From positions 1 through 23,559 of IMG/VR virus record IMGVR_UViG_3300027749_003205: a DNA stretch of 23,559 nucleotides. The stretch is one strand, 5' to 3'. The position numbers and the translations under genes were made by a program. Numbering within the stretch: position 1 is the stretch's first letter; each line of letters starts with the position of its first letter. This stretch comes from a virus. The notes under the pieces were generated by a model, which worked only from the letters and a program-made list of their open reading frames with translations, ran no database searches and had not been told where the DNA came from. Shown here piece by piece: positions 1 through 19,286 of this stretch.

Positions 1-1918
1 CAATCTTGACAAATTGATCGTCATTGCCTAGATACAGGTCAGTGGTGCCACCGCCTGCGGTCAAGTGTATGTGATCACCTTCGCCTTCAGCAGTTGGATA
101 AATCAGCAATGCTTGATAAACGTTGGCACCGCCTGCGGGTGTAAGTCGAATAGCACCAGTAAATCCACCGCCTTCTGCAATAGTGCCACCAGCTGGTAGT
201 TGTAAAGAACCATCTGTGCCAAAGGTCCAATAATGTTGGGCACCAATCTCTGACGAAGAAATCTCAACCCCACCAGCACTTGGAAGTTTTACATAGTTAT
301 TGTCATCACCTAAGAATAAATCAATAGCTTGCTGACCTGCCTTCATTATGTGGAAATGACTTTCCCCACCCGCACACTCTGCTAGGTTGCCTAACAATAT
401 AGTGCCACGGGCTGTGGTTATTGGAACACCAAAAACTGCGTCACCATCTCCTATAGTAGACCCATTAGGCAATGTTAGTTTACCATCTGAGTCAAACAAC
501 CATTCAACGTGTCCGTCGTGTGCGGGATTCTTAATCTGTAAATGAGCACGATGATTGGCAGTTAGGTAATCACCGCCATCTTTGTCAAAGTAAAAGTAGC
601 TGGTGTTGTTGTCGTTGATCTCACCGTAGCTGATACCAATCCAATCTGCTCCAGCTCCAGTGCGGAATTCTAATCCAGTATATGGACTTTCTAGTTGTCC
701 TATTTGTCCGTTGTTGTTGGGAAAGTTTAGTACGCCATCTGTACCAAAACGCCAAACTTGTTGATCACCGCCATTGACATCGTTAGCACCAATCTCTACA
801 CCATAAGGCATAGATGGGGGAATGTTTTCATAGCCTTTTAATTTAACATAATTGAAATCATCACCAAGGAATAGGTCCACATGATACGGATCCTGCTTCA
901 TGATGTGGAAATGGGTAGTAGTTCCCGGCTCTGGGTGATTACCAAACAATATGGTTCCGCGGTCTGTGGCCATTCTGAGACCAAGTTCTGTATCACTACC
1001 ACCGATACTGTATCCACTGGCAAATTGTATTTGACCATCTGTGGTTATCTTGAATCCACCAGTTCCACTAGGTGTGTCAATACTACCATCAGTAGGTAAT
1101 GTTAATATACCATTGGTGCCAAATGTCCACGCCTGATAACCACCTGTGTTATCAAAGCGAGTATTGATTAAAAAATCTGTTCCGTTTGGACCAAAGATAC
1201 CAGCAGAGCCTTCTAGAGATCCAAGCCATGTACCGTTAGGGAATGTTAACGTACCATCTGTGCCAAATGTCCAATAGTTTTCAGTTGTCTCACCTTCGAC
1301 AAAATTGCTAGTAACATGTGCTCCAACATCATCTACCCAAAAACTATTAGCACCGTTGTTGCTTAATAGGCTTGCCCAAGCGGCTTCACCGCTGCCGGCC
1401 TTGACAATAATATTTCCATCGGTAGTTGCTGTAACTGTATCGAATGTCCAACTGCCAGGGTCAGCAGTACCACCTAATACTGAGTCACCGTTGCTGTCAA
1501 CAATGTCACCACTTTCTGGTAGTTCTAATACTCCATCATCTCTAAAGGTCCACATGTTATTGTTAGACTCGATAGTAACCTGCTGTGCGGCCAATTCAAT
1601 GTTGCCAGTAGTTCCATTGTTGGGTAGTGGAGCACCGCCAGCTTCAATAATAACGTTACCACCAACCCCTTCATCACTACAGTTAGCACCTTTGATGTAC
1701 ACTGGCATGCCAGTATCAAATCCACTTTGTATAACAACCATACCAGTATCTGGATCAATGTCTACAAACTGTGTATCATCACCTAGATGATATTGTATAG
1801 GATTCCCTGCCGCGTACAGTTCGTCAAAGTTTGCATTTACTTTATCAAACGCTGTACGTATTGGGTCGCCATTTTTAGCATTGGCTGCAGTTCCAGTATT
1901 AATATGTTGCTTAGTCAT
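1..1918 (-). CDS. Tail-fibre-like structural protein, 3' part outside window
   Basis: This open frame starts at ATG 1918 and runs off the left edge without a stop (639 codons seen). Its start overlaps the stop of the giant gene upstream in a TAATG junction, with GGGAGA a few bases before it. Residues about 16-35 hold the motif GDPIRTAFDKVNANFDELY, close to one in the giant protein's N-terminus and probably a virion attachment segment. The rest is beta-rich and repetitive. A motif of the form WxFGxDGxLxxPxxGxI occurs six times, near 1530, 1250, 1110, 730, 485 and 205. A longer module containing RGTILxGN, an HxH pair and DLFLGDDxNYVKL occurs twice in full and once in a diverged form. The HxH pairs are residues 336/338, 521/523 and 616/618. 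No enzyme domain is visible. Tail fibre or other distal virion protein is inferred from motifs and neighbours. Confidence 0.85.
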   Translation of the reverse strand, partial: MTKQHINTGTAANAKNGDPIRTAFDKVNANFDELYAAGNPIQYHLGDDTQFVDIDPDTGMVVIQSGFDTGMPVYIKGANCSDEGVGGNVIIEAGGAPLPNNGTTGNIELAAQQVTIESNNNMWTFRDDGVLELPESGDIVDSNGDSVLGGTADPGSWTFDTVTATTDGNIIVKAGSGEAAWASLLSNNGANSFWVDDVGAHVTSNFVEGETTENYWTFGTDGTLTFPNGTWLGSLEGSAGIFGPNGTDFLINTRFDNTGGYQAWTFGTNGILTLPTDGSIDTPSGTGGFKITTDGQIQFASGYSIGGSDTELGLRMATDRGTILFGNHPEPGTTTHFHIMKQDPYHVDLFLGDDFNYVKLKGYENIPPSMPYGVEIGANDVNGGDQQVWRFGTDGVLNFPNNNGQIGQLESPYTGLEFRTGAGADWIGISYGEINDNNTSYFYFDKDGGDYLTANHRAHLQIKNPAHDGHVEWLFDSDGKLTLPNGSTIGDGDAVFGVPITTARGTILLGNLAECAGGESHFHIMKAGQQAIDLFLGDDNNYVKLPSAGGVEISSSEIGAQHYWTFGTDGSLQLPAGGTIAEGGGFTGAIRLTPAGGANVYQALLIYPTAEGEGDHIHLTAGGGTTDLYLGNDDQFVKI

Positions 1919-4900
1919 TATGCTCTCCCTACAGCAATTTGTATTACTCCGGCTTCGCCGTAGTCCTTATCCTCTAATGCTTTACCAATAATAGCACCTA
2001 GTGTTGGTGTTGTTGCTTTAACAGCACATCCAGGAGTAGCACTAGTTGTTAGCATGTCACCTTTCTTAACACGTCCAACTACTCGACATGGAATACGGCC
2101 AGCTAGTGCAACACAAACTTTAATACCTTTTTGTTCACTGTTCATCACATACGCTGGATTAGTTGTTACTACTCCTGCTGAACGGGTATCGTTCATTGTA
2201 ACAGTTGTTGTAACTTCTTTATCTCCGCCAAACACTAGCACGGTACCTGCTTCGTATTCTTGATCGCCTTCATAATATTCAGCCAAGTCAGCATAGGTAG
2301 CTTCAAATGCGCCACTTAGATGCCACGCACCAGTGATGTCGCCCCGTGTGCCACTAGCACCAGTTGTAAGAGTAACACTCTTTAGTGTACCACCAGTAAT
2401 ATCGAGTAGACCAGTTGTCACAGTTAGTGTACCATCTGATATAGTTAAGTTACTGCCAGTAGCGAATCTCAATTGACTTGCCGCCGCCACAGTCCAATCG
2501 CCTACAATTGAACCAGTGGTTGCCGGAGCACCAGTATACAAGCTCTTAGTTTTTAACGAACCGTTTGTAACATCAATAGTGCCGTAAACAGTTGCTACTC
2601 CGTTGCTACCATCAGTACCGGTAGCAGTTAGGAAGTTAAATGTTCCAGGAGTATAAAAATCTACACTTGGAGTTGCCGCCGTAGTATCAATGATCTTATA
2701 GCCGTCAATCTTTAACTGTTTAGCATCGATCTCCCCAGCACTACCAGTTTTGACAATACTGTTATTACCGCCACTAGTTGTAACAGCAGTAATACTGTAT
2801 GTATTATTGTTAGTGTTAGAACCATCGTATGCTGTGATCATCACACCGCTGGCAGCAAATGATGCGTTCTTAATACCGTCACCTGCGGTAACAACATTGC
2901 CCGGAGTAACTTCAGTAGGAGCAGCCGATACAGTACCTAAATTACCAACAAGACTCTTGGCACCAATATATTGTAGTCTGGTTAAAGTTACACCAGTGCT
3001 TGTTGAGCTACTTGGTTTAATAGTAATCCAACCATTTGATGATGTAAATTGTTGTTGATCAAATGCTGCAAGACCTAAGTCTGCCTGTGCGACACTTGGG
3101 GCAGTGTACGGTGATAAACTTGTTGGAGCAATAGTTCCAGCGGCAGTCATTGATAGTTTACTTTGAACAATAGCTGCACTTGCGCTAACCATTGTGTTAG
3201 TAATCTTACCGCTAGCAATTGCTGTAGTAATTGTACCAGCACCTGCGTTGTATGTTATAGTAACATCGTTACCTGTGCTAGTTGCCGGTAGAGCAATATT
3301 TTTCCACTGCGGCCTCACCACAGTTCCACTACCGCCCCATAGGGTTGTATATGTGCTGATCCATGATACTGAGTTAATAGTACAGTCAGTTACTAGCCAT
3401 TCACCATTGTATCCAGTTGATGTTAGAATTCCACTGATTCTAATAATTGATCCAACAGCAAACGGAGGACTAGATTGTGTAGCAAAATTTACTGTGGCAA
3501 CTGCTCCGGTGCCACTTGCGCCAATGATTGTAAATGTTGTGTTTAAATCATATACAGCAATGTTTCCTTGGGCGACACTGGTAAAGTTTGCATCACGCAA
3601 TTCACCAAATTGATCGTGAGCGTCAACTAACGCATCAACATACCCTTTGGTTGCCGCATCAAATGCGCCAACTGGAGTAGCAATGTTGCCAATGCCAAAA
3701 GTAGCCATGTTAAGGTTACCTTTCATTGTTCCGCCGTTCAATGGCAAGTAACCTGGTCCAATCAAGTTAGATGACGGAACTGGGCCACCGCCGTGATCAA
3801 GACCCAGTCGTTTATCAATGTATCCTCGAACAGCACTTTGTACTGGAACAATCTCACTAGCGTTGTTGGTCATAGTTGAGTCTGTTGAGAACTCACTGAT
3901 AACAACACCACGTTTAAATCCTAATCCGTCCAAGTTACTCAATGCAATTGACGCTGAGAATGTAACAGTACCGGTACCTTGGTCAACTGTAAAGAACTTA
4001 CCAACTCGGAAGATACCGTTTTGGTCAGTAGTTACATAGAACACACGACCGACTCCGTCCTCTTGAATTTCTTGAGCTTGTTGACGACCTATTACTGGAT
4101 TACCATAAATGGTATATGGGTAGTTGGTAGTTGAATACCCACCAGTACCGATGTCTAAGAAATCATGCCCCGTAGCACGGTTTGTACTAATACGCTGAGT
4201 GATCTGTGCTGACGCCCCAACACCATATCCTAAACGCAGTGTTGCGGCAGCGTCAGTTGGGAAAGGTTTACTAATACCTAACGAATTACTGGTTCCTGTA
4301 GTAACTTCTTTCATTATAAAAGTTACAGGAGTTAATACAGTTATTCCAGTACTATATGCTCCGGGATTGGAAGCATAACTAACTGTGACTGTTGTTGCCG
4401 TTGACGCAGTAACGGTTACGGTACGGTTATACCCAGCAGTAGCATTTCCAGTAACTGTCCAATAACTACCAACGGCCGGCAAGTTAGTTTGACTTGGTAT
4501 CGTGTAGGTTACTAGATACGGACCAGTGCCAGTAACGCTGTCGTAACTGGCAATAGTAATACTAGCAACACCGCTGTTCCATGTACCTGGGTTATACGGA
4601 TAGCTTAATGTAATGCTACTAGTAGTACTGGCCACGCAATAGTAGAATCCGTTATACAACGGATTGTTGTTACTGGTAATATTAAAATACTTACCAACTG
4701 TTGGAGCAGTACCTTGTGTACGCAGACCTAATACTACCGCATAGGTAGTTGTTATAATTCCACTTGCTACCGTTTGTGAAACACTAACAGTCCACGATGA
4801 TCCAGAACCAGCGGTAATATAAGTTCCCGCTGATACACCTGTACCAGTGACTCCTTGGCCAATGGCAATAGTGCCAGTGCCCACAGCAACCACAGTTAGT

Positions 4901-7900
4901 GTAGTCCCAACAATAGTTCCAGTAAATGAAGCAGGGCCGGTTATACTAGTAAATGTGTTAACTGCTACTTGAGCAGTAACCGCGGTACTAGTGAATGTTT
5001 GTGAAGGACTTACAGTCCATGATAATCCAGATCCTGCGGTAATGTACGAGCCAGGAGTAACGCCGTCACCGACGATAGTTTGGCCAATAGCAATAGTACC
5101 TGTAGTCAACGAACTAACAGTTAATGTAGTAGACCCTGCCATTGCCCCAACAAACTCAGCATAGTTACTCTTGGTAAATGTTCCTGGGTTGCTAGTATAG
5201 GCAACTGAAATTTGGTTAGTTGACACACCTGCCACAGCAACTGGAGTAACTGTTGCAGTAGCTGACAACACAGCAGTAAGAGTAGCGTTATTATGAGAAG
5301 TATCAATTACTTGCCCATTCAAGTAAACTAATGGGGTAGAGGTGTAGCCGTATCCCGGACTTACAATGCTAACAGCAGTAATACTGCCGCCACTAATTGT
5401 ACAAGTAGCCAGGCCCCCGGCAGTCTCGCCGTTGACAAACGCCCCGTTAATACTGCCGCCACGTCCAATAATAATTGTAGGCGGAGTAGTAAATCCACTA
5501 CCACCGTTGGTTATAGTAATACGATCTAATACTGATACCACTGTGGAACTAACACTGGCTCCGGCTGGAATCCAACCAGCAGGGGCAATTGTAAATTGTG
5601 TAGTGCTGTCAATGCTTTGAATAACAGTACCTGACGAAATATAAGCACCCGCTGTTGAGCTGGTCACAACCATACCTACTGCCAATCCAGTGACATCAGG
5701 TACCGTAATTTGCGTTTTACTCAATACCCCAGTAACTTGACGATATCCGTTGTATGCTACACTAGCACCAGTTTGTCCACTAATATTATACCAAGCATCA
5801 ACAATTGGCAAAGCCGTAGGCGTCCAAGGAACGCTATAAGTAACAATCTTTTTACCGCTTGTTGGAACAGTTTTACTAACAAATGTCAACGCACTAATAA
5901 CACTGCCGTCGCCGACGATGTTAATAACTGGGTTTGGATCAATATTTAAATATCCGGTATATTGTGTACCAAATGTAATTGATGAGCTGCCAACGATTGC
6001 TGTGTTGGCTAATGCGCTTAATACTACAGTTGTCAAAGTGCTTGGATATACCGGAGCAGTAACGCTCAGTACATATTGATTGCTTGAAAACGCGGCATTA
6101 ACAATAATATCGCCAATCTCAATAACCCCAAGTACTGTGTCAACAAGCATAGTTGTACTGGCACTACCGCCACTTACAAATCTTGCTGTGGCAATAAACG
6201 TTGGTTGTGTATAACTAGAAATTGTATGTATACGACCATTCCAGCCAGTTACGTAGGTACCTTTATTAATTTGGTCAATTGTTGCTTGTACGCTGATCTG
6301 TAGTACAGAGATCTTATTGTCACCAACCTTAGCACCCTGTGTTTTTGCCCCAACCTGTCCGCCACTGGCGTAGGTTGCTGTTACTGTGCTAGCGTATTGT
6401 ACTTGAGTGGCGCTACAAGTCGTAACAGTATATGTACCGTTATATAAATCAGTAGTACCTCCTGTGTTTACTACGCCTTGTATTGTAATACTATCGCCGG
6501 CAGCAAACGGAGCACTTCCTTGATTAGCAAAAGTAATAGTAACAGTTGAACCACTACCACTTGCTCCAGTTACAGTAATTGCGCCATCTGGGTCAAGTAA
6601 CCCAATATTTAAGATATCAGTTACAAATTTATAATATTGGAATGACGCATCTGTACCTAACACCGCAATATTAGCAGGTAACGTTTCGCCTGTTGATTCG
6701 CTTAGGTTATAAGCAATAACACGATAGATGTCAGCTAACTTGTCATTAAATTGCAACGCGGTACTTGGACGAGTAGGTCTAACGTTGTCAATACCTGTAA
6801 ACTTAATATTAGTCAATGATCTAATAGTTACTTGTTGTCCGTCATACAGTGTATAAGCAAGGCCAGTGCTTGAAGTACCATTGTTACCTGCGGTACTTAG
6901 GTTAATCTTAAGAACGTTTTGTCCGTTAATAGTAACAGTAGTATGTTCAACGCTGGTTACTTCGTATCGAGTAATACCCCCACCAAATATAATACTGTGA
7001 TCAATTTCAAGTTCTGATGTATTATAAGGAGAAAAGTCGTAGCCAATAATGTAAACGGCCAATGATTGTTTAGCAGTAGTTGGGGTCATCTCCCCGGCAA
7101 AACTACCTTGTTTATACACACGGGCTACCTGCATCATGTTGTTGGCAAGTGTAACACTATCGGGTTTTTCAGTTACATCATATCCTGAAGCTCGTAGACC
7201 ATACACCCCGTGTGCGTTAGACCCACCAACAGAACGAATTTGTCCGCCGTTATTCGACCAATAGTGTGTATAACAGTAATATGTAAATGTTGAAACTTGT
7301 TCTGAAATACCGCCGTTGGTACAAATAACAGCATAACCTAAATCGTTAATCATCGCAAAGTCGTTGGCTAACATGGACTTGTTGCCGCCCATCTCAAGAT
7401 TGATTAATAATCCACCACCGTTATTTAGATAGGTGATTGTATTAGTTTTGATTGAAGTCTTGGCCGCTACAATTAATGTCTGTGCTTCAATTAATGATCC
7501 AGCGCCGGTTGGCAAGCCAGATAATGAAGGAGTAGTTCTTGAAGTTGCGCTCACGCCATCAAGCACATAGTCAACAATTAAATCACTTAAATCTCCAATT
7601 TTAATATATTCAGCATCAGTGTTTAAAATAATATAACCGGCAGTAATTGTTTGTACAGCAATATTACCAGCTGATTTACTAACTGTTGTGTTTAACGAAA
7701 TTTGTTGTAGTACGTTCTTGAAACGTCCGTAGGCCGCTGCCGTTACTGATTCTTCACCTGTAATTTGATTGCTGCCGCTTTCGCCTGAGACACTTCGCCC
7801 ATAATACGATAGTACTGCATCAAACGTCATGCTATTACCACCATACATTATGTCGTAACATATAGCATCAATCATATAGCCTACATCACGTGAACATGTT

Positions 7901-10900
7901 ACTGCGCTGTAATTAGGAATTGTTTTAATTGCGTATGTAGAAGCAATCCACGCAACAATTTCAGCTCGAATAAACGATCTGTTGGCTTGTAAGTTATTTT
8001 TTAATTTAACTGCTGCCGCTGTCGAGTTTACGCTAGTTGGGTATGTAATTGTTGGAGCTGCCGTAATGCCTTGGTCAATAATAGTATTAAGAATATTCAT
8101 ACTACTAGTAACTGCAGCTACTGCCGAACTATTACCGGCAATAGTAGCCAATGCTAGATCTCTAGTTTTGTTAAGTCCTGCTACAGTTTGTGTCTTTTGA
8201 TTTGTTATAACAAGGCTAGCATCTGCTCGAGCATATGATATACCTGCTCTAATAGTTTGGAAATTAGACCCAAGTACCATGTCATAGGTTACGGCATCAA
8301 GGATTAAACCAACGTCACGTGAGCAAGTTGCTTGATTATATCCAACCGGGTTAGATACATTAGTAGGATCGTATGGGGTAGCAGTATCTAATGTTAGTAC
8401 AACGGTTTTAGTTGCTGAATCAAAACTTACTATATCATTAATTTGGAAACGATTTCCTTGAACAAAAAACACGCAAGGTGCCTGTGGCGGTCGTATATCA
8501 AGCCCACTATTTGTTTCTCCAACTACGGTAACAGTAATACCGCTGTTGGCAATGTTGGTAATTGTACCAAATAGTCTACCAGTAAAGCCGTCAACAAATT
8601 GCCCACCTGCAAACCGCTTGCGATTATTTGATTGAGTAAAACTTGTTGCTACTTGTCCGTATGGTGATTTAGTCTTAATTGATCCTTCTGGGTCAAGTAC
8701 CATGGCAAAGCCACCATGCCCTTGGAATGTTATATTGTTTACCCGAACAGCATCGTTACATAAAATAACGTCAATTTCTTTATTATTTTTAGCTTCGCTG
8801 GTGATGTCTAACGGATTTGTTAGATAATGTCTACCATAATTAATAGTATCGTATATGTGCCAATTACCAGTAGTCAGTGTAACTGCCGCATTAAATGGAT
8901 ATATGACTTCACAGTTCATAACATTACCGCTCACGCTGGTAACAACTGCCTTACCTCGGCGATCGTCTCGCATGACCGTAATACTACCGCTGCCGTTGAT
9001 CAACGCAACTGGCACTGTAGAATTGTATTTGGCCGTTAACGTAAAGGTTGTTAGCGTTGGAGTTGTTAATACATAGTAAATTTGACCTGTTACTAAATTG
9101 CCAAACGTAGTTCCCCTAAATACAACAGGGCTACCAATTTCAAATCCGTGATTAGTACTAGTAGTTATTCTACCAGTTGATTGTGTAGTGGTTGTAGCAG
9201 TTACCTTAGTAGTATCGTCCACTAATACTTTACTAATCCAACTTTGCGGAACTTGTCCAGTGCCTAGACTAATAGTGATAGTGTTATTGACGCCGCCTAA
9301 CGTAATTGAAGAACCAGCCGCATAATCTGTTCCTGAATAATTAATTGGACCCAATTGCATCGCATCAATAATTGCGTCACGATAGAAGAATAATTTCCTC
9401 CAAGGAGATTGACTAATACGATCGCGTGGACGCATAATAGTTCTACGGAATTCGTCACCTTTAATTGACACGTTGTCGGCTAGTCTAATTGGATAGTCTT
9501 CGTAATAAACACCAGATTCCATAAAGATAACAATTTGTAGTTCCCTTACAGTTTCACCAAATTCAAGTTGCTCTCCAAGAACAAAAAATCCTGGTTTAGT
9601 TAACCGAATCTGAATAGTATCAACATTACTAATTGCTCCTGGTAGGTATTTTACAATAGTACCATAGGCAGCACTTGAATATCCTACAAGCACCTTCGCA
9701 GGAATAATGTCGTTGTTGCCCGGAATACCTTGATCAACATACCCATTGCCGCCGTTTGATATTACCACGTTCCAAATACCAGTACCAAAACTTGGAGTAG
9801 GTGCCGCACCATACCCGTTTTGTATGATGTTAATTAACAAGTCCATATTATTACTGAACGTTGTTTTAGCGCCACTGCTTGCGGTCTTAGCAGGACGTAG
9901 CTGTTGTTCTACTAACAGTTGATATCTAGTTGCTTTAGTTTGATTTAGTACCTGTAACGCAACAGTCTTAGCGTATTGAATACCGTCGAGGGTTTCAGAA
10001 TATTGTGTTCCAATCGCAATAGCCTTAGCTGACGCATTTTTGTAATAGCTCTTACCGGCACCAATACTTTGATAAGTTCCGCCAGTAACTAAGTCAATGA
10101 CCATGGCGGTAATGATTAGTCCAACATCTCGATAGCAGACTGTTTCGTCATAGTTAAATCCACCACTGAATGTTGTGTCAATGTATATGATGGTGTCATA
10201 CGCAACTTGTGTTTTACTTGCTTGAATAATTTCTCTTGCTGTGATAGCATCAGCATCGTACGCACCATTATCAATAACAGGGTAGACAAGATCTAATGTT
10301 TCTGTTGGAAGGTCTGGATTAGCCTCGTTAATAATAGTGTATGTAGCGTTCCAAGAATTATTAATTACAGAGGCAGCATAAGAGCCGTTGCTCCAAGCAT
10401 TGTTACTGTATTGTGGAATTAATGTTTGTCCAAGCTCTCCAGCTAACAACACATCATTTTGACTTACACGTATTGATAATGACTGAGCAAATGCCAGCGC
10501 CGCAAGGGTTGAAGTTAATTCGTTTCCTGCGATCTGTAATGCTGAATATTGAAAGTATTGTTGTCCAGATAAGATACCCCCGCTGTTACCACCGTAGGTA
10601 ATATCGTAAGCAACCCCTTCTATGATATAACCTAAATCTCGAGCACAGGTTGCTTGACTATAACCTGTTGCGTGAGGATTTGCGTTAATAAACGCAATAG
10701 TCTCAGCAATAATAAAGTCAATGTTGTTTAGTATTAAATCTCTAGCATGTCGATATCCAAGTGGTCGATAGACCGCATCGGGATCAGTAAATGTTGGATA
10801 CACTCTAGTATCAATACCATTTTCTAATAAGTCAGTAACAATTTGGAATAAGTCGCTGATTTGACTTAAAATTGTTGGATTGTTGATTGGAGTAAAGTTA

Positions 10901-13125
10901 TTATCAATATAATTTGTAGAAGATGTTAACAATACAGTAACTTTGGCAGGATCAACAATTGCCGACCTTGCTCCTTGTAAACTAATTGGGGCGTTGGCAG
11001 CTATTGGATATACAACTGCTGGCGCATTACCACTGTCGTCGATAATAGTAATGACATTATCAACACCGCCGCCAATTGATAAACTAACAGCATCACCGGG
11101 TACAACTCCGCTTAGTGTTTCGTTTCTATATTGCTTAACACTTTGCTGATATACAGTAGTTGGTGATTGATTATCAATAATTGATAACGATAACGATTTG
11201 ACATAGGTAAATGCTGCAATTATTGGGGCAACTTCTGTTTCTTGGATATTTAAAACAGCACCGATCCAATATCTTAAACCAGCATACACGGATTGGCTGT
11301 TGCCGCCATACATCATGTCATAGACTACACTCCAAATAACATACTCAACATCTCGTTGACAGGTAGCTTTGTTATAGGTTAATCCTGGATACTCAGTTGT
11401 TAAGAACGAAATTACCTCAGCTTGAATAAATGTAATATTGTTCAATAATAATTGTTTTGCTGAATTCTGCGCTGAGGTAGTTCCTGATAAATTAGGAATA
11501 ACAACATCGGGCAACTTATTGCCAAGGATGATGCTAGAAATCAATTCAATGTTTGACACAATTGAACTAACTGCTGAAGGTATATCTTTAACCGCAGTGA
11601 TACCGGCAACTACTGGCACAGCATCCGGATTGCCAATGATTTGATATTTTAAATTGGTAAGTACCTCAATTATTTCTGACTGACTTAAGAATGTGCCAGC
11701 TCTCGCAAATGCTAGACCTACTTGTATTGATTGATAGTTTGATTGGAATACTAAATCATATGCCAACGCATTGATTACATTAGTGATGTAATCGTCAACA
11801 CCTATTGTGCTATATGAATTATTTAAAATTTGATCTCGGGCAAATTTAATACCGCTAACTGTTTGTACTAAATTGTTTGGAGCAATTTTTTGTAATGAAC
11901 TTGTTGCAGCTCTAGTAACATTAAATGTACTGTCTAAAACAAGGTCGTATCCAACAGCATCTAAAATTAATTTAACATCGCGACTACATTTAATTTTATC
12001 GTAAGTAAACGTGTTAACATATTTGTTGTTAATATACGCAACAACCTCAGCTTGAATAAAAGGTGTGTTTAATTCTAACAAATCTCTAGCATCGGTATAG
12101 CCAGTGTCTCCACTATTGCCACCGGATAGTGTTGCGCTTTGGACTGTAGAAAATGTTTGATCCGCCCCGATGGTGTAACTTAATCGTTGACGATATGGGC
12201 CAGGTTCCTGTGTTGCTAGAGCAATTAGTGTTTCGGCTTGTAAAGCGGCAGCACCAACGGTCTTATAAGCATAGTTCCAATAACGGCCTTCTTTGCCTAC
12301 TGGTGTTTTTTGTTGTAAGTCATCACCATTACTAGCAGAAACATATAAGTTAACATTGCTTGAATACGTACTATTATCTACATAAAACTTAGTTGCGGCT
12401 TGTAAGTCGTCACCGCTATTCGGAGTGCCTTGTCCAGCCATTGGAGCAGGATGATCGCTCAATGTTAGGGCGCCTGTCATTGTATCACCACCGCGGTATA
12501 CTACGTGCTGACGTTGTACAGCTTCAGTTTTTAAATAATTGCTAGATAATCGTACATCATAATCTGGGTCAGTAGTATCAGGGGCAATTGGCTCGTTACG
12601 TACTTTTAACGGGTCTCCTAGTGTACCAGTAGCAGATCGTTGGATATATCTATTATCAGCATATCCTTTTGGAATAACTAAATCGTCAATGGTAATGCTG
12701 AATCCGGGAGTTACGTATATTGCGTTAAATGCATCGACTAATGTTTGATTCGGTGCTTGAACATTACCAATACCTAAAAACGCATTTAACGGAGCACCTA
12801 ATGTTGGCGTGTATTCGTTAACTAGCTTACCAGCATTTGATCGAATATCGAGTTGTCCATTGTTGCTAGTTGTAAACGCAATTGAATTATCAGTACTAAC
12901 GATTGTACGTGCGGTAAGTTTATCGCCAGTGTGACTAGCCATGATAATTTGGTCCGGGTCATAGCTAGACGGCGCATCATCAAGGGCATTAAATTTAATC
13001 TTATCCCCACCCAATATGCCGTAAACTTGTGTAAAGTTTTCATTTACCTTACGGAACGACTCACGTATACTATCACCAGTGCCGTCGTTACCTTGTACGC
13101 CAATATCAATTGTTTGTTTTGCCAT
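1918..13125 (-). CDS. Giant fibre/virion structural protein (3735 aa)
   Basis: I place the start at ATG 13125, with GGAG about 10 nt upstream; a start at 13161 would run into the iscA-like gene and add 12 unlikely residues. Residues 5-30 carry the GDSIRESFRKVNENFTQVY attachment-type motif. Between about 375 and 1770 a repeat of the form YxxxxCxRDVxxIIDAVxYDxxxGGN occurs six times, plus one degenerate copy. Residues about 1195-1258 look like the start of a pectate-lyase-type beta helix (MESGVYYEDYPIRLADNV). Residues about 2180-3500 are Thr/Ser/Gly/Val-rich beta modules, many with a YNG core. LNGGTMKGNLNM...DAATKGYVD near 3130-3165 is typical of phage fibres. The C-terminus (YADLAEYYEGD onwards, about 3609-3735) resembles fibre-tip domains, some of which in other phages are self-cleaving chaperones; that is unproven here. 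It sits in one late unit with the iscA-like gene, 5 bp apart. It matches the very large virion proteins of marine T4-like phages. Confidence 0.9.
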   Translation of the reverse strand: MAKQTIDIGVQGNDGTGDSIRESFRKVNENFTQVYGILGGDKIKFNALDDAPSSYDPDQIIMASHTGDKLTARTIVSTDNSIAFTTSNNGQLDIRSNAGKLVNEYTPTLGAPLNAFLGIGNVQAPNQTLVDAFNAIYVTPGFSITIDDLVIPKGYADNRYIQRSATGTLGDPLKVRNEPIAPDTTDPDYDVRLSSNYLKTEAVQRQHVVYRGGDTMTGALTLSDHPAPMAGQGTPNSGDDLQAATKFYVDNSTYSSNVNLYVSASNGDDLQQKTPVGKEGRYWNYAYKTVGAAALQAETLIALATQEPGPYRQRLSYTIGADQTFSTVQSATLSGGNSGDTGYTDARDLLELNTPFIQAEVVAYINNKYVNTFTYDKIKCSRDVKLILDAVGYDLVLDSTFNVTRAATSSLQKIAPNNLVQTVSGIKFARDQILNNSYSTIGVDDYITNVINALAYDLVFQSNYQSIQVGLAFARAGTFLSQSEIIEVLTNLKYQIIGNPDAVPVVAGITAVKDIPSAVSSIVSNIELISSIILGNKLPDVVIPNLSGTTSAQNSAKQLLLNNITFIQAEVISFLTTEYPGLTYNKATCQRDVEYVIWSVVYDMMYGGNSQSVYAGLRYWIGAVLNIQETEVAPIIAAFTYVKSLSLSIIDNQSPTTVYQQSVKQYRNETLSGVVPGDAVSLSIGGGVDNVITIIDDSGNAPAVVYPIAANAPISLQGARSAIVDPAKVTVLLTSSTNYIDNNFTPINNPTILSQISDLFQIVTDLLENGIDTRVYPTFTDPDAVYRPLGYRHARDLILNNIDFIIAETIAFINANPHATGYSQATCARDLGYIIEGVAYDITYGGNSGGILSGQQYFQYSALQIAGNELTSTLAALAFAQSLSIRVSQNDVLLAGELGQTLIPQYSNNAWSNGSYAASVINNSWNATYTIINEANPDLPTETLDLVYPVIDNGAYDADAITAREIIQASKTQVAYDTIIYIDTTFSGGFNYDETVCYRDVGLIITAMVIDLVTGGTYQSIGAGKSYYKNASAKAIAIGTQYSETLDGIQYAKTVALQVLNQTKATRYQLLVEQQLRPAKTASSGAKTTFSNNMDLLINIIQNGYGAAPTPSFGTGIWNVVISNGGNGYVDQGIPGNNDIIPAKVLVGYSSAAYGTIVKYLPGAISNVDTIQIRLTKPGFFVLGEQLEFGETVRELQIVIFMESGVYYEDYPIRLADNVSIKGDEFRRTIMRPRDRISQSPWRKLFFYRDAIIDAMQLGPINYSGTDYAAGSSITLGGVNNTITISLGTGQVPQSWISKVLVDDTTKVTATTTTQSTGRITTSTNHGFEIGSPVVFRGTTFGNLVTGQIYYVLTTPTLTTFTLTAKYNSTVPVALINGSGSITVMRDDRRGKAVVTSVSGNVMNCEVIYPFNAAVTLTTGNWHIYDTINYGRHYLTNPLDITSEAKNNKEIDVILCNDAVRVNNITFQGHGGFAMVLDPEGSIKTKSPYGQVATSFTQSNNRKRFAGGQFVDGFTGRLFGTITNIANSGITVTVVGETNSGLDIRPPQAPCVFFVQGNRFQINDIVSFDSATKTVVLTLDTATPYDPTNVSNPVGYNQATCSRDVGLILDAVTYDMVLGSNFQTIRAGISYARADASLVITNQKTQTVAGLNKTRDLALATIAGNSSAVAAVTSSMNILNTIIDQGITAAPTITYPTSVNSTAAAVKLKNNLQANRSFIRAEIVAWIASTYAIKTIPNYSAVTCSRDVGYMIDAICYDIMYGGNSMTFDAVLSYYGRSVSGESGSNQITGEESVTAAAYGRFKNVLQQISLNTTVSKSAGNIAVQTITAGYIILNTDAEYIKIGDLSDLIVDYVLDGVSATSRTTPSLSGLPTGAGSLIEAQTLIVAAKTSIKTNTITYLNNGGGLLINLEMGGNKSMLANDFAMINDLGYAVICTNGGISEQVSTFTYYCYTHYWSNNGGQIRSVGGSNAHGVYGLRASGYDVTEKPDSVTLANNMMQVARVYKQGSFAGEMTPTTAKQSLAVYIIGYDFSPYNTSELEIDHSIIFGGGITRYEVTSVEHTTVTINGQNVLKINLSTAGNNGTSSTGLAYTLYDGQQVTIRSLTNIKFTGIDNVRPTRPSTALQFNDKLADIYRVIAYNLSESTGETLPANIAVLGTDASFQYYKFVTDILNIGLLDPDGAITVTGASGSGSTVTITFANQGSAPFAAGDSITIQGVVNTGGTTDLYNGTYTVTTCSATQVQYASTVTATYASGGQVGAKTQGAKVGDNKISVLQISVQATIDQINKGTYVTGWNGRIHTISSYTQPTFIATARFVSGGSASTTMLVDTVLGVIEIGDIIVNAAFSSNQYVLSVTAPVYPSTLTTVVLSALANTAIVGSSSITFGTQYTGYLNIDPNPVINIVGDGSVISALTFVSKTVPTSGKKIVTYSVPWTPTALPIVDAWYNISGQTGASVAYNGYRQVTGVLSKTQITVPDVTGLAVGMVVTSSTAGAYISSGTVIQSIDSTTQFTIAPAGWIPAGASVSSTVVSVLDRITITNGGSGFTTPPTIIIGRGGSINGAFVNGETAGGLATCTISGGSITAVSIVSPGYGYTSTPLVYLNGQVIDTSHNNATLTAVLSATATVTPVAVAGVSTNQISVAYTSNPGTFTKSNYAEFVGAMAGSTTLTVSSLTTGTIAIGQTIVGDGVTPGSYITAGSGLSWTVSPSQTFTSTAVTAQVAVNTFTSITGPASFTGTIVGTTLTVVAVGTGTIAIGQGVTGTGVSAGTYITAGSGSSWTVSVSQTVASGIITTTYAVVLGLRTQGTAPTVGKYFNITSNNNPLYNGFYYCVASTTSSITLSYPYNPGTWNSGVASITIASYDSVTGTGPYLVTYTIPSQTNLPAVGSYWTVTGNATAGYNRTVTVTASTATTVTVSYASNPGAYSTGITVLTPVTFIMKEVTTGTSNSLGISKPFPTDAAATLRLGYGVGASAQITQRISTNRATGHDFLDIGTGGYSTTNYPYTIYGNPVIGRQQAQEIQEDGVGRVFYVTTDQNGIFRVGKFFTVDQGTGTVTFSASIALSNLDGLGFKRGVVISEFSTDSTMTNNASEIVPVQSAVRGYIDKRLGLDHGGGPVPSSNLIGPGYLPLNGGTMKGNLNMATFGIGNIATPVGAFDAATKGYVDALVDAHDQFGELRDANFTSVAQGNIAVYDLNTTFTIIGASGTGAVATVNFATQSSPPFAVGSIIRISGILTSTGYNGEWLVTDCTINSVSWISTYTTLWGGSGTVVRPQWKNIALPATSTGNDVTITYNAGAGTITTAIASGKITNTMVSASAAIVQSKLSMTAAGTIAPTSLSPYTAPSVAQADLGLAAFDQQQFTSSNGWITIKPSSSTSTGVTLTRLQYIGAKSLVGNLGTVSAAPTEVTPGNVVTAGDGIKNASFAASGVMITAYDGSNTNNNTYSITAVTTSGGNNSIVKTGSAGEIDAKQLKIDGYKIIDTTAATPSVDFYTPGTFNFLTATGTDGSNGVATVYGTIDVTNGSLKTKSLYTGAPATTGSIVGDWTVAAASQLRFATGSNLTISDGTLTVTTGLLDITGGTLKSVTLTTGASGTRGDITGAWHLSGAFEATYADLAEYYEGDQEYEAGTVLVFGGDKEVTTTVTMNDTRSAGVVTTNPAYVMNSEQKGIKVCVALAGRIPCRVVGRVKKGDMLTTSATPGCAVKATTPTLGAIIGKALEDKDYGEAGVIQIAVGRA
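4772..5145 (-). repeat. Tandem 75-residue repeat inside the giant fibre gene
   Basis: Two copies (about 4772-4920 and 4997-5145) lie exactly 225 nt apart, which is 75 codons in frame. Both encode TGTIAIGQ, then GxYITAGSGxSWTVSxSQT. The DNA itself is still very similar, for example tggccaatagcaatagt against tggccaatggcaatagt, so the duplication is recent or kept alike by recombination. Both copies belong to the Thr/Ser/Gly-rich beta part of the protein. Confidence 0.8.
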
Positions 13126-13130
13126 TTTTC

Positions 13131-13454
13131 TTAAACTCCGAAGCTTGATCCGCACCCACACGTAGTTTGTGCGTTGGGATTTTTAATTGTAAAAGAACTG
13201 CCCATGAGTTCTTCTTTATAGTCTATTTCTGCGCCCTGTAAGTATTGCATACTCATGCTGTCTATAAGTACACGAAACTCATCTAATGGGACTTCAAAGT
13301 CATCTTCATTCATTACATCGTCAAATGTAAAGCCATAGCTAAATCCGCTACAACCTCCGCCTTGCACAAATGTACGTAGTGCTAGCTTGGGATTTCCCTC
13401 TTCGTATAGCAGATCTTTGATTTTTACTTTAGCTGACTCTGAAATTGTGATCAC
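13131..13454 (-). CDS. iscA: A-type iron-sulfur carrier (IscA/ErpA/HesB family)
   Basis: The 107-residue protein has the family's usual length and its three cluster-binding cysteines: Cys35 in [11 protein letters not shown], and Cys99 and Cys101 in the C-terminal CGCGSSF. Proteins of this family carry or scaffold Fe-S clusters and pass them to client enzymes. The start is GTG at 13454, supported by AAGGA 6 nt upstream; no in-frame ATG fits. A GATAAATA late octamer lies 18 nt upstream of the start. The giant fibre gene follows 5 bp after the stop, so the two are probably made together late in infection. HesB/IscA homologues are known in marine T4-like phages. Its clients here are unknown: three radical SAM proteins are encoded in the window but in a different transcription unit. 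Confidence 0.95.
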
Positions 13455-14344: not shown

Positions 14345-14360
14345 TATTTAGCTATAAATA
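14345..14360. promoter_or_regulatory. Divergent late-promoter element (TATTTA-gcta-TAAATA)
   Basis: An inverted pair, TATTTA then TAAATA separated by GCTA, puts a TAAATA hexamer on each strand between sod and the lysine-rich gene. On the plus strand it forms a perfect CTATAAATA late octamer (14353-14360), 19 nt before ATG 14380. On the minus strand the match is weaker (GCTAAATA) and only 5 nt from the sod start. The plus-strand promoter is well supported; the minus-strand one is a guess. Confidence 0.65.
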
Positions 14361-16525: not shown

Positions 16526-17977
16526 TTATTGACGACTAATTGCGCCAAACGGCAACCAGGTGCCGGGTTCTCCAGTAGCAACACAAACCCAACCAATATA
16601 GGTAAACTCGGCTGGATCTGAGTTCCAACAAACATCACCCTTAGTAGCCATTCCAGTTACAGGCGCACCCGTTCCGGTTGTAAACTTTTTATCAGCAAAA
16701 CTGATATTTCCTTTAACTGCTAAATCTACAGTTGGGTCTGGATTGCTGATGCCAATACTTAGTTGTCCAAACACTTTTACAGCCCGGCGACTATTTAACT
16801 TGTTGCCAATTTCAATTTTTAAATCGTCTGCGTAGAATGCTTGGTGATTGTCAATGTTGATTGCGAATGAGTCTGCGCTTGCTAACGACTGTAATGTTAG
16901 TGATTTAACAGTAAGAGCATCAGTAATTACTGGTCCTAAGAATGTAGTTTCGCCTTTGACTACTAGCGATTTTAGTGCGCCAACAGAATTTAAATTTGAT
17001 TCTGTTACATTTGGACCAAGGCTGTGTGCTGATAGGACCATAGAGCCATTAATGTAATACTGTTTATCTTGTGCTAGTTCTAATGACTCTGTGGATAATA
17101 GTCTATCAGGATTAGCTTGGATGGTTAACTGCTTTGTTGTTCCGTTGCCCAACCATACTAGACCTTTGCCATAAATGTTATCATTATCAGATGCTCTAAA
17201 TTCTAAAGAGGTAGATTTTTCTAATCTAGTATCAGAAACTATGTTTTCAGCAAACAATGTGCCGTATACTCGTAATACACCATTTTTGTAACGCTCTTCG
17301 CCTATATGAACTTCCCCGTCATTTTTTACAGTAATGCGAGCGGTGTTATCTGTTACTAATGCTAGATCGTGATTAGTATAAGTTCCTATAGTAGCCAACC
17401 CAACGCTTGGGGAATCGATAATAATTTCTACATCATTTTCAACAATACCTAAAACACCATGTGGATTCTCAACATTGATACCAATACGATTCATGGAAGA
17501 ATTAAAAAACGCAAACTCGCCAATGGTTGCATCACCGTCTACTGCTAACTTTCTTAGATTACCAACTTCTGTTAAGCTACTCTTTTTAACTTGAGTGCCT
17601 AGTTGATTTAGACTAATAACAGTAGTATTGTCAATTTTGTAAGATTTATCGCGGTTTAAATCAACATCACCGTTAGTCCAAACTCTGCCGCCATTTTTAT
17701 AAATTAACTGTACGTTGCCAAGCCCCCAAGTCCAGCCTAACCCTTTACCGTTTAATTCTTCTTCAGTATTAACAGTCCACTGTCCAACACCTTCAATTGT
17801 ACCGGATTCTGTAATTAAGTTTTTGACTTTGACTGTGCCGGCTGTTATAGTACCCCCTACTGCGAGATCACTACTAACAGTAAGTGTTCCGTCATGGGTT
17901 ACCGCACCCGAAGTTGATTCTAAAACTAGGGTTTTTATAACAATTTTATCTTCTTGGATAGTAAGCAAGTTGGTCAT
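16526..17977 (-). CDS. Fibre-like virion structural protein (483 aa)
   Basis: The protein is beta-rich with no enzyme motif. A module of about 73 residues occurs twice, at about 77-149 and 270-342. Both copies run GKGLxW..., then LxxDKxYxI, then LGxxVxxSxLxxVGxLxxLxVxG. The N-terminal segment (TLTVSSDLAVGGTITAGTV) and the C-terminal one (VKGNISFADKKFTTGTGAP, GDVCWNSDPAEFTYIGWVCV, PGTWLPFGAI) are of types common in marine phage fibre proteins. Cys450 and Cys465 flank the C-terminal motif. ATG 17977 is the last codon of a long inverted repeat, and a GATAAATA octamer lies 20 nt upstream, so synthesis is probably late only. Whether it is a tail fibre, a baseplate or a head-decoration protein is not clear. 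Confidence 0.85.
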   Translation of the reverse strand: MTNLLTIQEDKIVIKTLVLESTSGAVTHDGTLTVSSDLAVGGTITAGTVKVKNLITESGTIEGVGQWTVNTEEELNGKGLGWTWGLGNVQLIYKNGGRVWTNGDVDLNRDKSYKIDNTTVISLNQLGTQVKKSSLTEVGNLRKLAVDGDATIGEFAFFNSSMNRIGINVENPHGVLGIVENDVEIIIDSPSVGLATIGTYTNHDLALVTDNTARITVKNDGEVHIGEERYKNGVLRVYGTLFAENIVSDTRLEKSTSLEFRASDNDNIYGKGLVWLGNGTTKQLTIQANPDRLLSTESLELAQDKQYYINGSMVLSAHSLGPNVTESNLNSVGALKSLVVKGETTFLGPVITDALTVKSLTLQSLASADSFAINIDNHQAFYADDLKIEIGNKLNSRRAVKVFGQLSIGISNPDPTVDLAVKGNISFADKKFTTGTGAPVTGMATKGDVCWNSDPAEFTYIGWVCVATGEPGTWLPFGAISRQ

Positions 17978-18009
17978 GGATAATACTCTCTTTAGAGTAT
18001 TTATCCATG
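17975..18009 (-). promoter_or_regulatory. Inverted repeat sequestering the fibre-gene start codon
   Basis: On the minus strand a 16-nt arm (18009-17994) pairs with a 15-nt arm (17989-17975) around a 4-nt AAAG loop, with one bulged A. The ATG of the 483-residue gene is at the 3' end of the stem. In a transcript coming from upstream, the ribosome site and start codon would be base-paired. The late octamer lies in the 5' arm, so a late transcript would begin near the loop and lack that arm. Confidence 0.75.
17998..18005 (-). promoter_or_regulatory. T4-type late promoter octamer (GATAAATA) for the fibre gene
   Basis: GATAAATA on the minus strand is 20 nt from ATG 17977 and identical to the octamer before the iscA-like gene. 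No -35 box is seen. Initiation about 6 nt downstream would start the mRNA in the loop of the surrounding inverted repeat. Confidence 0.65.
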
Positions 18010-18021
18010 TTTTGCTAACCC

Positions 18022-19227
18022 TTATGCTACTTTAAGTAGAATAGTTTCTTCGTTTAGTCGACCATTCATTTTAGTGTCTGTGGCATTGATGTCGTCTAAG
18101 AACTTGCGTAGTTGTACCTTGCCTGCCGCTTTGAATTCTTTGAGTTTCTCTTCGGGCTTGCGCAGAGTCTTACAAACACTCAAGTTTTCGTTGAATCCAA
18201 TGATTGTGGTTCCTTTAACGCCGAGTGTTTGGTATTCGGCGGCAACATACTTGCCCAATTTACGAGTTTTAGAATTATAAACCCACAACTCGCCGGCTCC
18301 TACGATATCTGTAGGGTTAATACTTACAAGTTTTAACGGCTCGTTAGTCTTCATATACTTGAGTTTAGCAACAATCTTTTCTGCTGGAACTGCTTTCTTA
18401 GCACGTGGTTTACGATTGACCTTAGCTTCTTGTGACAGCATATCACACGCACTCATAATCTCTTGATAGAAGGCAATTAAGTTCTTAATCTGCTTCTTAG
18501 TACGATGTGAATAGCCTTCACGCAACTGCTCGTCTGCCTTGCCGCTAGCAAGTTCTTCAAGTTCTGCTAGATCTTTAGCATAAAAGCCTTTGATGATGCG
18601 AGCATGTGCGGCTTTGACTTCTTTACCTTTGAGCAAGTTAAGCATCTTAAATGCCTTTGGATCAAATGCTTCTGGATCTACTTGAAAGCCTTCAATAGCA
18701 TCTTCAATTTCCTCAGTCATTCTATAAGCGGCTTCTTTTACACGATCTTGTATTGAAGGTGTATAAACAGCAGGCTTCGCCGCCTCAATTGCCTTGGCCT
18801 CATCAGGATCAATATCGTTTTTACCTTCAGCAATTACTTTGACAATCTCTGCTCGCAACCAAGCGGCAGTGTCACGGCCTTGATTAAAGTCAGCACGTAG
18901 CGTAGTCATTCCACGATTCAAACAGCAGGCAACGGCGCCCATTGTTGTACCAACACGGCTATCTTTAACTTTTTTGAACGCTGTAATGTCTGCTCGAGTA
19001 CAGCCAACGGATTCCATCCATTTGACAACAGCCGGCTTGTAACTTTTAATGTCGGACTCTAAGCGGTAGTAGTCCATTGAGCGTTTAAAATGGCGATGGA
19101 ATGTATCGGCATCCCATGCCTCGCAACCTTCCCAAACTGGACTATGGTCTTTAACAGCACGAGTACGGTGTGCTGTAACTTGAGCTTTAGTTACACGGGT
19201 CTTTTTTACTGGTGCTTTAGTCGCCAT
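18022..19227 (-). CDS. Basic phage protein of unknown function (401 aa)
   Basis: I do not recognise a characterised family. The N-terminus is a Lys/Arg/Thr-rich tail (APVKKTRVTKAQVTAHRTR, residues 5-23). Residues 30-300 look helical and charged, with a KGKEVKAAHARIIKGFY stretch and a basic linker (RKPRAKKAVPAEK). The C-terminal 100 residues contain GELWVYNSKTRKLGKYVA and EETILLKVA, which look like beta strands. The overall charge is positive, so nucleic-acid binding is possible but unproven. ATG 19227 has AGGAG 5 nt upstream and a perfect sigma-70 promoter about 30 nt upstream, so it is probably expressed strongly and early by host polymerase. No frameshift or truncation is apparent. Confidence 0.85.
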   Translation of the reverse strand: MATKAPVKKTRVTKAQVTAHRTRAVKDHSPVWEGCEAWDADTFHRHFKRSMDYYRLESDIKSYKPAVVKWMESVGCTRADITAFKKVKDSRVGTTMGAVACCLNRGMTTLRADFNQGRDTAAWLRAEIVKVIAEGKNDIDPDEAKAIEAAKPAVYTPSIQDRVKEAAYRMTEEIEDAIEGFQVDPEAFDPKAFKMLNLLKGKEVKAAHARIIKGFYAKDLAELEELASGKADEQLREGYSHRTKKQIKNLIAFYQEIMSACDMLSQEAKVNRKPRAKKAVPAEKIVAKLKYMKTNEPLKLVSINPTDIVGAGELWVYNSKTRKLGKYVAAEYQTLGVKGTTIIGFNENLSVCKTLRKPEEKLKEFKAAGKVQLRKFLDDINATDTKMNGRLNEETILLKVA

Positions 19228-19251: not shown

Positions 19252-19266
19252 ACATATATTATATGT
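19252..19266. promoter_or_regulatory. Palindrome ACATATA-T-TATATGT over the -10 box
   Basis: A 15-bp perfect palindrome with a single central base covers the TATAAT box of the promoter for the 401-residue gene. It could be a repressor site or simply follow from the AT-rich -10 region. Confidence 0.35.
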
Positions 19267-19286
19267 TCATTCTGGAGTATTGTCAA
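19258..19286 (-). promoter_or_regulatory. Perfect-consensus sigma-70 promoter for the 401-aa gene
   Basis: On the minus strand TTGACA (19286-19281), a 17-nt spacer and TATAAT (19263-19258) match all twelve consensus bases at the ideal spacing. The stop codon of the upstream radical SAM gene lies in the spacer. Initiation near 19251 leaves a leader of about 24 nt with AGGAG before ATG 19227. Confidence 0.9.

Follow-up and report, generated by a model that had tools for sequence, protein, structure and literature searches.

A hairpin on the minus strand of a contig from an uncultured T4-like phage very probably keeps the gene that follows it, a 483-aa structural, tail-fibre-like gene, silent until late infection. 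The window analysed here is the entire contig, 23,559 bases in length, in which the long ORFs lie mostly on the minus strand, and we regard it as highly likely from its sequence and from that of its relatives that this hairpin serves as a timing switch by which a late structural gene is shielded against early transcription. The proposed target occupies positions 16526 to 17977 (minus strand), and its product matched two PHROG categories, virion structural protein at 1.8e-15 and tail fiber at 1.6e-6; a tail fiber of Bacillus phage Moonbeam was matched weakly. The gene upstream on the same strand (18022 to 19227) encodes a 401-aa product that matched phrog_11903, to which no function is assigned, and is presumed to be early; the Pfam search returned no match for either gene.

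Direct reading of the minus strand from 18009 to 17975 gives CATGGATAAATACTCT-AAAG-AGAGTATTATCCATG. The 5' arm, CATGGATAAATACTCT (16 nt, 17994 to 18009), starts 12 nt past the stop codon of the 401-aa gene and carries the late-promoter octamer GATAAATA (17998 to 18005), the ATAAATA core of which lies at 18004-17998. The loop is the 4-nt AAAG (17990 to 17993), and the 3' arm, AGAGTATTATCCATG (15 nt, 17975 to 17989), contains the start codon of the 483-aa gene at 17977-17975. The single bulged A of the hairpin is in the 5' arm, within the octamer. A Shine-Dalgarno-like GAGAG (17986 to 17990), 8 nt 5' of the ATG, is predicted to be paired on the long RNA and free on the late RNA, for which a 5' end near 17992 is predicted when T4 spacing (octamer plus 6 nt) is applied. 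The inverted repeat claimed in the preliminary description, with arms of 15 and 16 nt, a 4-nt loop and one bulge, was recovered at exactly the same coordinates, with the octamer and the ATG in the arms to which they had been assigned. The local fold of the hairpin region has a free energy of -26.5 kcal/mol (z = -4.8), and none of 200 dinucleotide shuffles was equally stable. A repeat finder with ungapped extension did not detect the hairpin, because the bulge interrupts such an extension, and an Rfam search returned no family.

The 401-aa gene is driven by a sigma-70 promoter (19258 to 19286, minus strand) that had been described earlier as strong, and the sequence TTGACA-17-TATAAT indeed matches the consensus at 12 of 12 positions. 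A 12/12 match with a 17-nt spacer was found at the same place in 41 of 46 relatives checked, and the remaining 5 have at least 10/12. The terminator scan called no intrinsic terminator at the 401-aa/483-aa junction of the window, and gave a weak terminator-like match within the 401-aa gene at 18944-18930, at chance level overall; the transcript of the 401-aa gene would continue into the 483-aa gene. A second strong sigma-70 match (11/12) lies at 16523-16496 (minus strand), just past the 483-aa gene and ahead of a QueD-like gene, so that the late gene appears to be wedged into seemingly early territory. About half of the contig is taken up by a 3747-aa fibre-like ORF (1918-13161, minus strand), which has as neighbours radical-SAM-type ORFs and UV-endonuclease-like, superoxide-dismutase-like and IscA-like genes, the last two of which were named from sequence without a family match.

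From this arrangement we infer the RNA start sites, the repression and its timing as follows. The host sigma-70 polymerase would start early RNA at the 19286-19258 promoter and pass the 401-aa gene without meeting a strong terminator. On this early RNA the leader of the 483-aa gene would form a 15-bp hairpin that buries GAGAG and the AUG, and we propose that ribosomes therefore cannot start there. Late in infection, polymerase carrying a gp55-type sigma factor would recognise the octamer in the 5' arm and initiate in the loop at about 17992, producing an RNA without the 5' arm; the start site would then be open and the 483-aa protein made.

The extent of masking was expressed as the free-energy cost of holding the start site open from -14 to +3, compared between read-through RNA and a late RNA that begins 6 nt past the octamer. 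In the window, the predicted opening cost was 17.7-18.6 kcal/mol when the RNA began 20-150 nt ahead of the octamer, compared with 1.2-2.3 kcal/mol when it began anywhere in 17994-17988, the low cost of the late RNA being insensitive to the exact start within this interval. The comparison of folded upstream and late transcripts that had been suggested as a check thus came out in favor of the switch, with a computed cost of about 18 versus about 2 kcal/mol to open the ribosome site. The read-through minus late difference was 16.0 kcal/mol in the window; the maximum among 661 control starts from five related genomes was 10.0. Differences above 8 kcal/mol were found for 13 of the 53 octamer starts in these five genomes versus 12 of the 661 other starts (Fisher p 1e-9). 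When T4 starts were ranked by the same measure, e, I-TevII, I-TevI, 49 and segB came out on top, and occlusion of this kind is documented for all five (PMC3014915, PMC2988022). The window value is higher than that of each of these T4 genes (at most 15.2 kcal/mol).

A relative of the 401-aa protein is encoded by 320 viral stretches, and the best 80 of these 320 loci were used to compare the junction. Among the relatives, the region after the 401-aa stop codon takes two main forms. In the terminator-free form (25 distinct junctions), the octamer is usually located about 20 nt past the stop, and either the start codon or the Shine-Dalgarno sequence is covered by a strong hairpin (mean occlusion difference, 15.7). 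In the terminator form (13 distinct junctions), the stop is followed by an intrinsic terminator; the octamer is found at a distance of about 60 nt, and occlusion by the hairpin is weaker (mean difference, 7.6). The 25 and the 13 junctions differ in this measure (Mann-Whitney p 2e-6), and full pairing of the start codon with the RNA preceding it was seen in 28 of 30 terminator-free rows versus 3 of 14 terminator-bearing rows (Fisher p 3e-6), the rows in both comparisons being related to one another and the terminator-bearing relatives clustering on the tree. Where the hairpin leaves the start codon largely uncovered, relatives instead have a terminator behind the upstream gene. On the tree built from the 401-aa protein, at least five changes of terminator state are needed, three of which are forced by well-supported branches, and about three independent hairpin/terminator swaps are supported, a number with which the sign test (p 0.25) cannot reach significance. 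The window groups with six terminator-bearing relatives in this tree (support 93), yet carries the hairpin. The gene downstream of the junction belongs to one family in both hairpin-form and terminator-form relatives, and the downstream proteins of L029 and L098, both of which have a terminator, share 47% identity over the full length. The octamer is missing from some loci, with the next gene on the opposite strand in L033, L038, L044, L051 and L082 and on the same strand in L045, L058 and L069. As far as can be judged from these loci, the start-covering hairpin and the terminator are alternating forms at this junction, a feature that is new relative to T4.

The position of the stem so close to the stop codon at 18022 raises the question of translational coupling, in which ribosomes ending the 401-aa gene would open the hairpin, both proteins would be made from early RNA, and the octamer would boost synthesis later. 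With only 12 nt between the stop and the stem in the window, and 2 nt in L096, a terminating ribosome might melt the stem. However, the usual spacer is about 10-13 nt, and the size of the ribosome footprint is such that a spacer of this length leaves most of the stem outside the terminating ribosome. Terminator-bearing relatives would moreover lose the coupling, yet they retain the gene and the octamer, and early synthesis of a structural protein is not expected. We therefore hold coupling to be quite improbable.

A further alternative is that the octamer is an ordinary late promoter accompanied by a hairpin that functions in RNA stability, RNase processing or termination instead of masking the start. 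Protection of RNA ends and guidance of RNases are common functions of stem-loops, and 40 of the 53 octamer starts in the five related genomes are without a strong hairpin, both of which would suit such a role. Termination is argued against by the absence of a U-tract 3' of the stem and by the terminator scan, which gave no call for the hairpin; a late RNA begun in the loop would itself lack the hairpin, the end of the 3' arm always falls on the start codon or adjacent to it, and strong folding is found at junctions that have no terminator. It is very unlikely that these roles account for the structure.

MAFFT misaligned the 3' arm across bulges, and pairs were for this reason counted by script on anchored positions. 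Directly beside the start codon, 22 rows have a G-C pair and 7 an A-U pair; the one other row counted (L065) has another hairpin design. Both sides of this pair switch in concert in three independent supported tree pairs, and the exceptions to joint switching were a small number of random pairings where one of the sides was the same. Compensatory changes were also seen in L086, which has ACCT/AGGT in place of ACTC/GAGT, and in L076, which has an extra A-U pair, while several relatives pair the invariable U of the start codon by G-U. In L052, L054, L065, L078 and L024 (CTTTTGGTATAAATATACAAAAGG) the arms are unrelated and the ribosome site is still covered. These results point to RNA pairing as the property under selection. 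Alignment of the junction, proposed in the preliminary description as a way to look for such changes, showed that octamer and pairing are retained among relatives through compensatory changes and that the early promoter is nearly invariant. Related phages that keep the octamer but not the arm pairing had been named as evidence against the switch, and PA5oct, a distant cultured relative (34% identity, with another downstream gene), does have the octamer without a start-covering hairpin. At the corresponding junction of the cultured relatives OC, Cr30, BUCT-ZZ01 and phiM12, no octamer was found.

The window contains three ATAAATA copies versus about ten scattered copies expected by chance, and all three precede ORF starts. 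The other two, at 13479-13473 (minus strand) and 14354-14360 (plus strand), are about 15-20 nt before the IscA-like gene and a 78-aa ORF, respectively. In the five related genomes the core is depleted genome-wide to about one third of comparable 7-mers, and 27-95% of the cores fall within 35 nt 5' of an ATG versus 4-8% for other A5T2 7-mers. A gp55-family late sigma factor (phrog_234) was detected in the three longest relatives (G001, G002 and G003; E ~1e-25); none was found in the window, which is a 23.6-kb fragment, or in the shorter relatives, and the gp55 link suggested for the window phage rests on the longer ones. The T4-like timing switch put forward in the preliminary description is supported at the level of sequence by covariation, promoter conservation, alternation with terminators and gp55 in relatives.

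On the opposite strand, each of the 21 distinct start-covering hairpins in the clade has its antisense core (TATTTAT) interrupted by a bulge, a deletion, a mismatch or a T-G wobble, with RNA pairing retained. Since the core is depleted and concentrated before start codons, avoidance of stray late promoters is a plausible explanation for the broken antisense cores; a confounder is that the remaining 3' arm (GAGAG, ATG) is itself constrained. A general rule that the antisense octamer is always broken was rejected for T4, where the I-TevI and segB hairpins have an intact antisense core, indicating that a broken core is not required by the mechanism. For the clade, we would give an even chance to a broader rule whereby every late gene behind a strong early gene needs an insulator, hairpin and terminator are interchangeable, and the arms are selected against an antisense promoter. 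The palindrome could instead be bound as double-stranded DNA by a symmetric protein, or act as a late promoter in both directions, the RNA fold being incidental, as the long arms, the octamer that a perfect palindrome would give on each strand, the intact T4 cores and the reported binding of I-TevI protein to its own operator at its hairpin (PMC2988022) might suggest, but we find this most unlikely given that every start-covering hairpin of the clade has a broken antisense core while RNA pairing persists, that wobbles maintain RNA pairing and destroy DNA symmetry, and that designs with unrelated arms still cover the ribosome site.

Further octamers and hairpins were observed in related contigs. 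A second octamer hairpin is present before a 241-242-aa gene (G004:C1:32834, G005:C1:37326 and near 73 kb in G008). It reads AGTACACT-ATAAATA...AGTGTACT-ATG in G005 and G008, in both of which the occlusion is strong, and a weaker variant is found in G004; in G004 and G005 the gene preceding it is ClpP-like (named from sequence), and in G008 it stands before a homologous-looking start. Many octamers in G002, G004, G005 and G008 (for example, G005:C1:16323) are only 4-5 nt 5' of an ATG, which would place the 5' end of the late RNA on the start codon or right next to it; leaderless late mRNAs are predicted in these cases. Octamer hairpins covering or touching an ATG were also seen in L102, L103, L112 and L108, contigs that match neither the 401-aa nor the 483-aa gene, and two of these hairpins apparently lie directly 3' of tRNA-like sequence.

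The masking mechanism is already known from T4, where e, soc, 49 and I-TevI have late promoters and an RNA helix that masks the ribosome site on early read-through RNA (PMC3014915); the precedents e, soc and 49 had been named correctly at the outset. The window shares with these T4 genes a late octamer in or beside the 5' arm, a late RNA (predicted for the window) without that arm, and a Shine-Dalgarno sequence and/or AUG inside the 3' arm (PMC3014915). Unlike them, the window has as its target a structural gene of tail-fibre-like type, preceded by a perfect sigma-70 promoter that is conserved, its computed occlusion is somewhat stronger, and its relatives exchange the hairpin for a terminator. 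The promoter-in-hairpin layout is shared with the homing endonuclease genes I-TevII, I-TevIII and segB of T4 and mobE of Aeh1 (PMC2988022), which, in contrast to the window gene, encode mobile endonucleases within early or middle units. The octamer itself pairs with the start region, as in I-TevI and segB, but the clade differs from these two in the broken antisense core of its start-covering hairpins. Such hairpins are not treated in one paper on Far-T4 phages or in one on pelagimyophages. What is new here, as read from the genomes compared, is that an uncultured T4-like clade conserves the element ahead of a virion gene, the alternation of hairpin and terminator, and the consistently broken antisense octamer. 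Evolutionary evidence for masking, in the form of covariation and terminator substitution, is not reported in the cited literature. These findings would extend a mode of regulation described for a few T4 genes to diverse uncultured phages, and to a virion gene as opposed to lysis and homing endonuclease genes. An octamer combined with a start-covering hairpin may then serve as a simple sequence rule for predicting, where a genome has no transcript data, which phage genes must be shielded against early expression.
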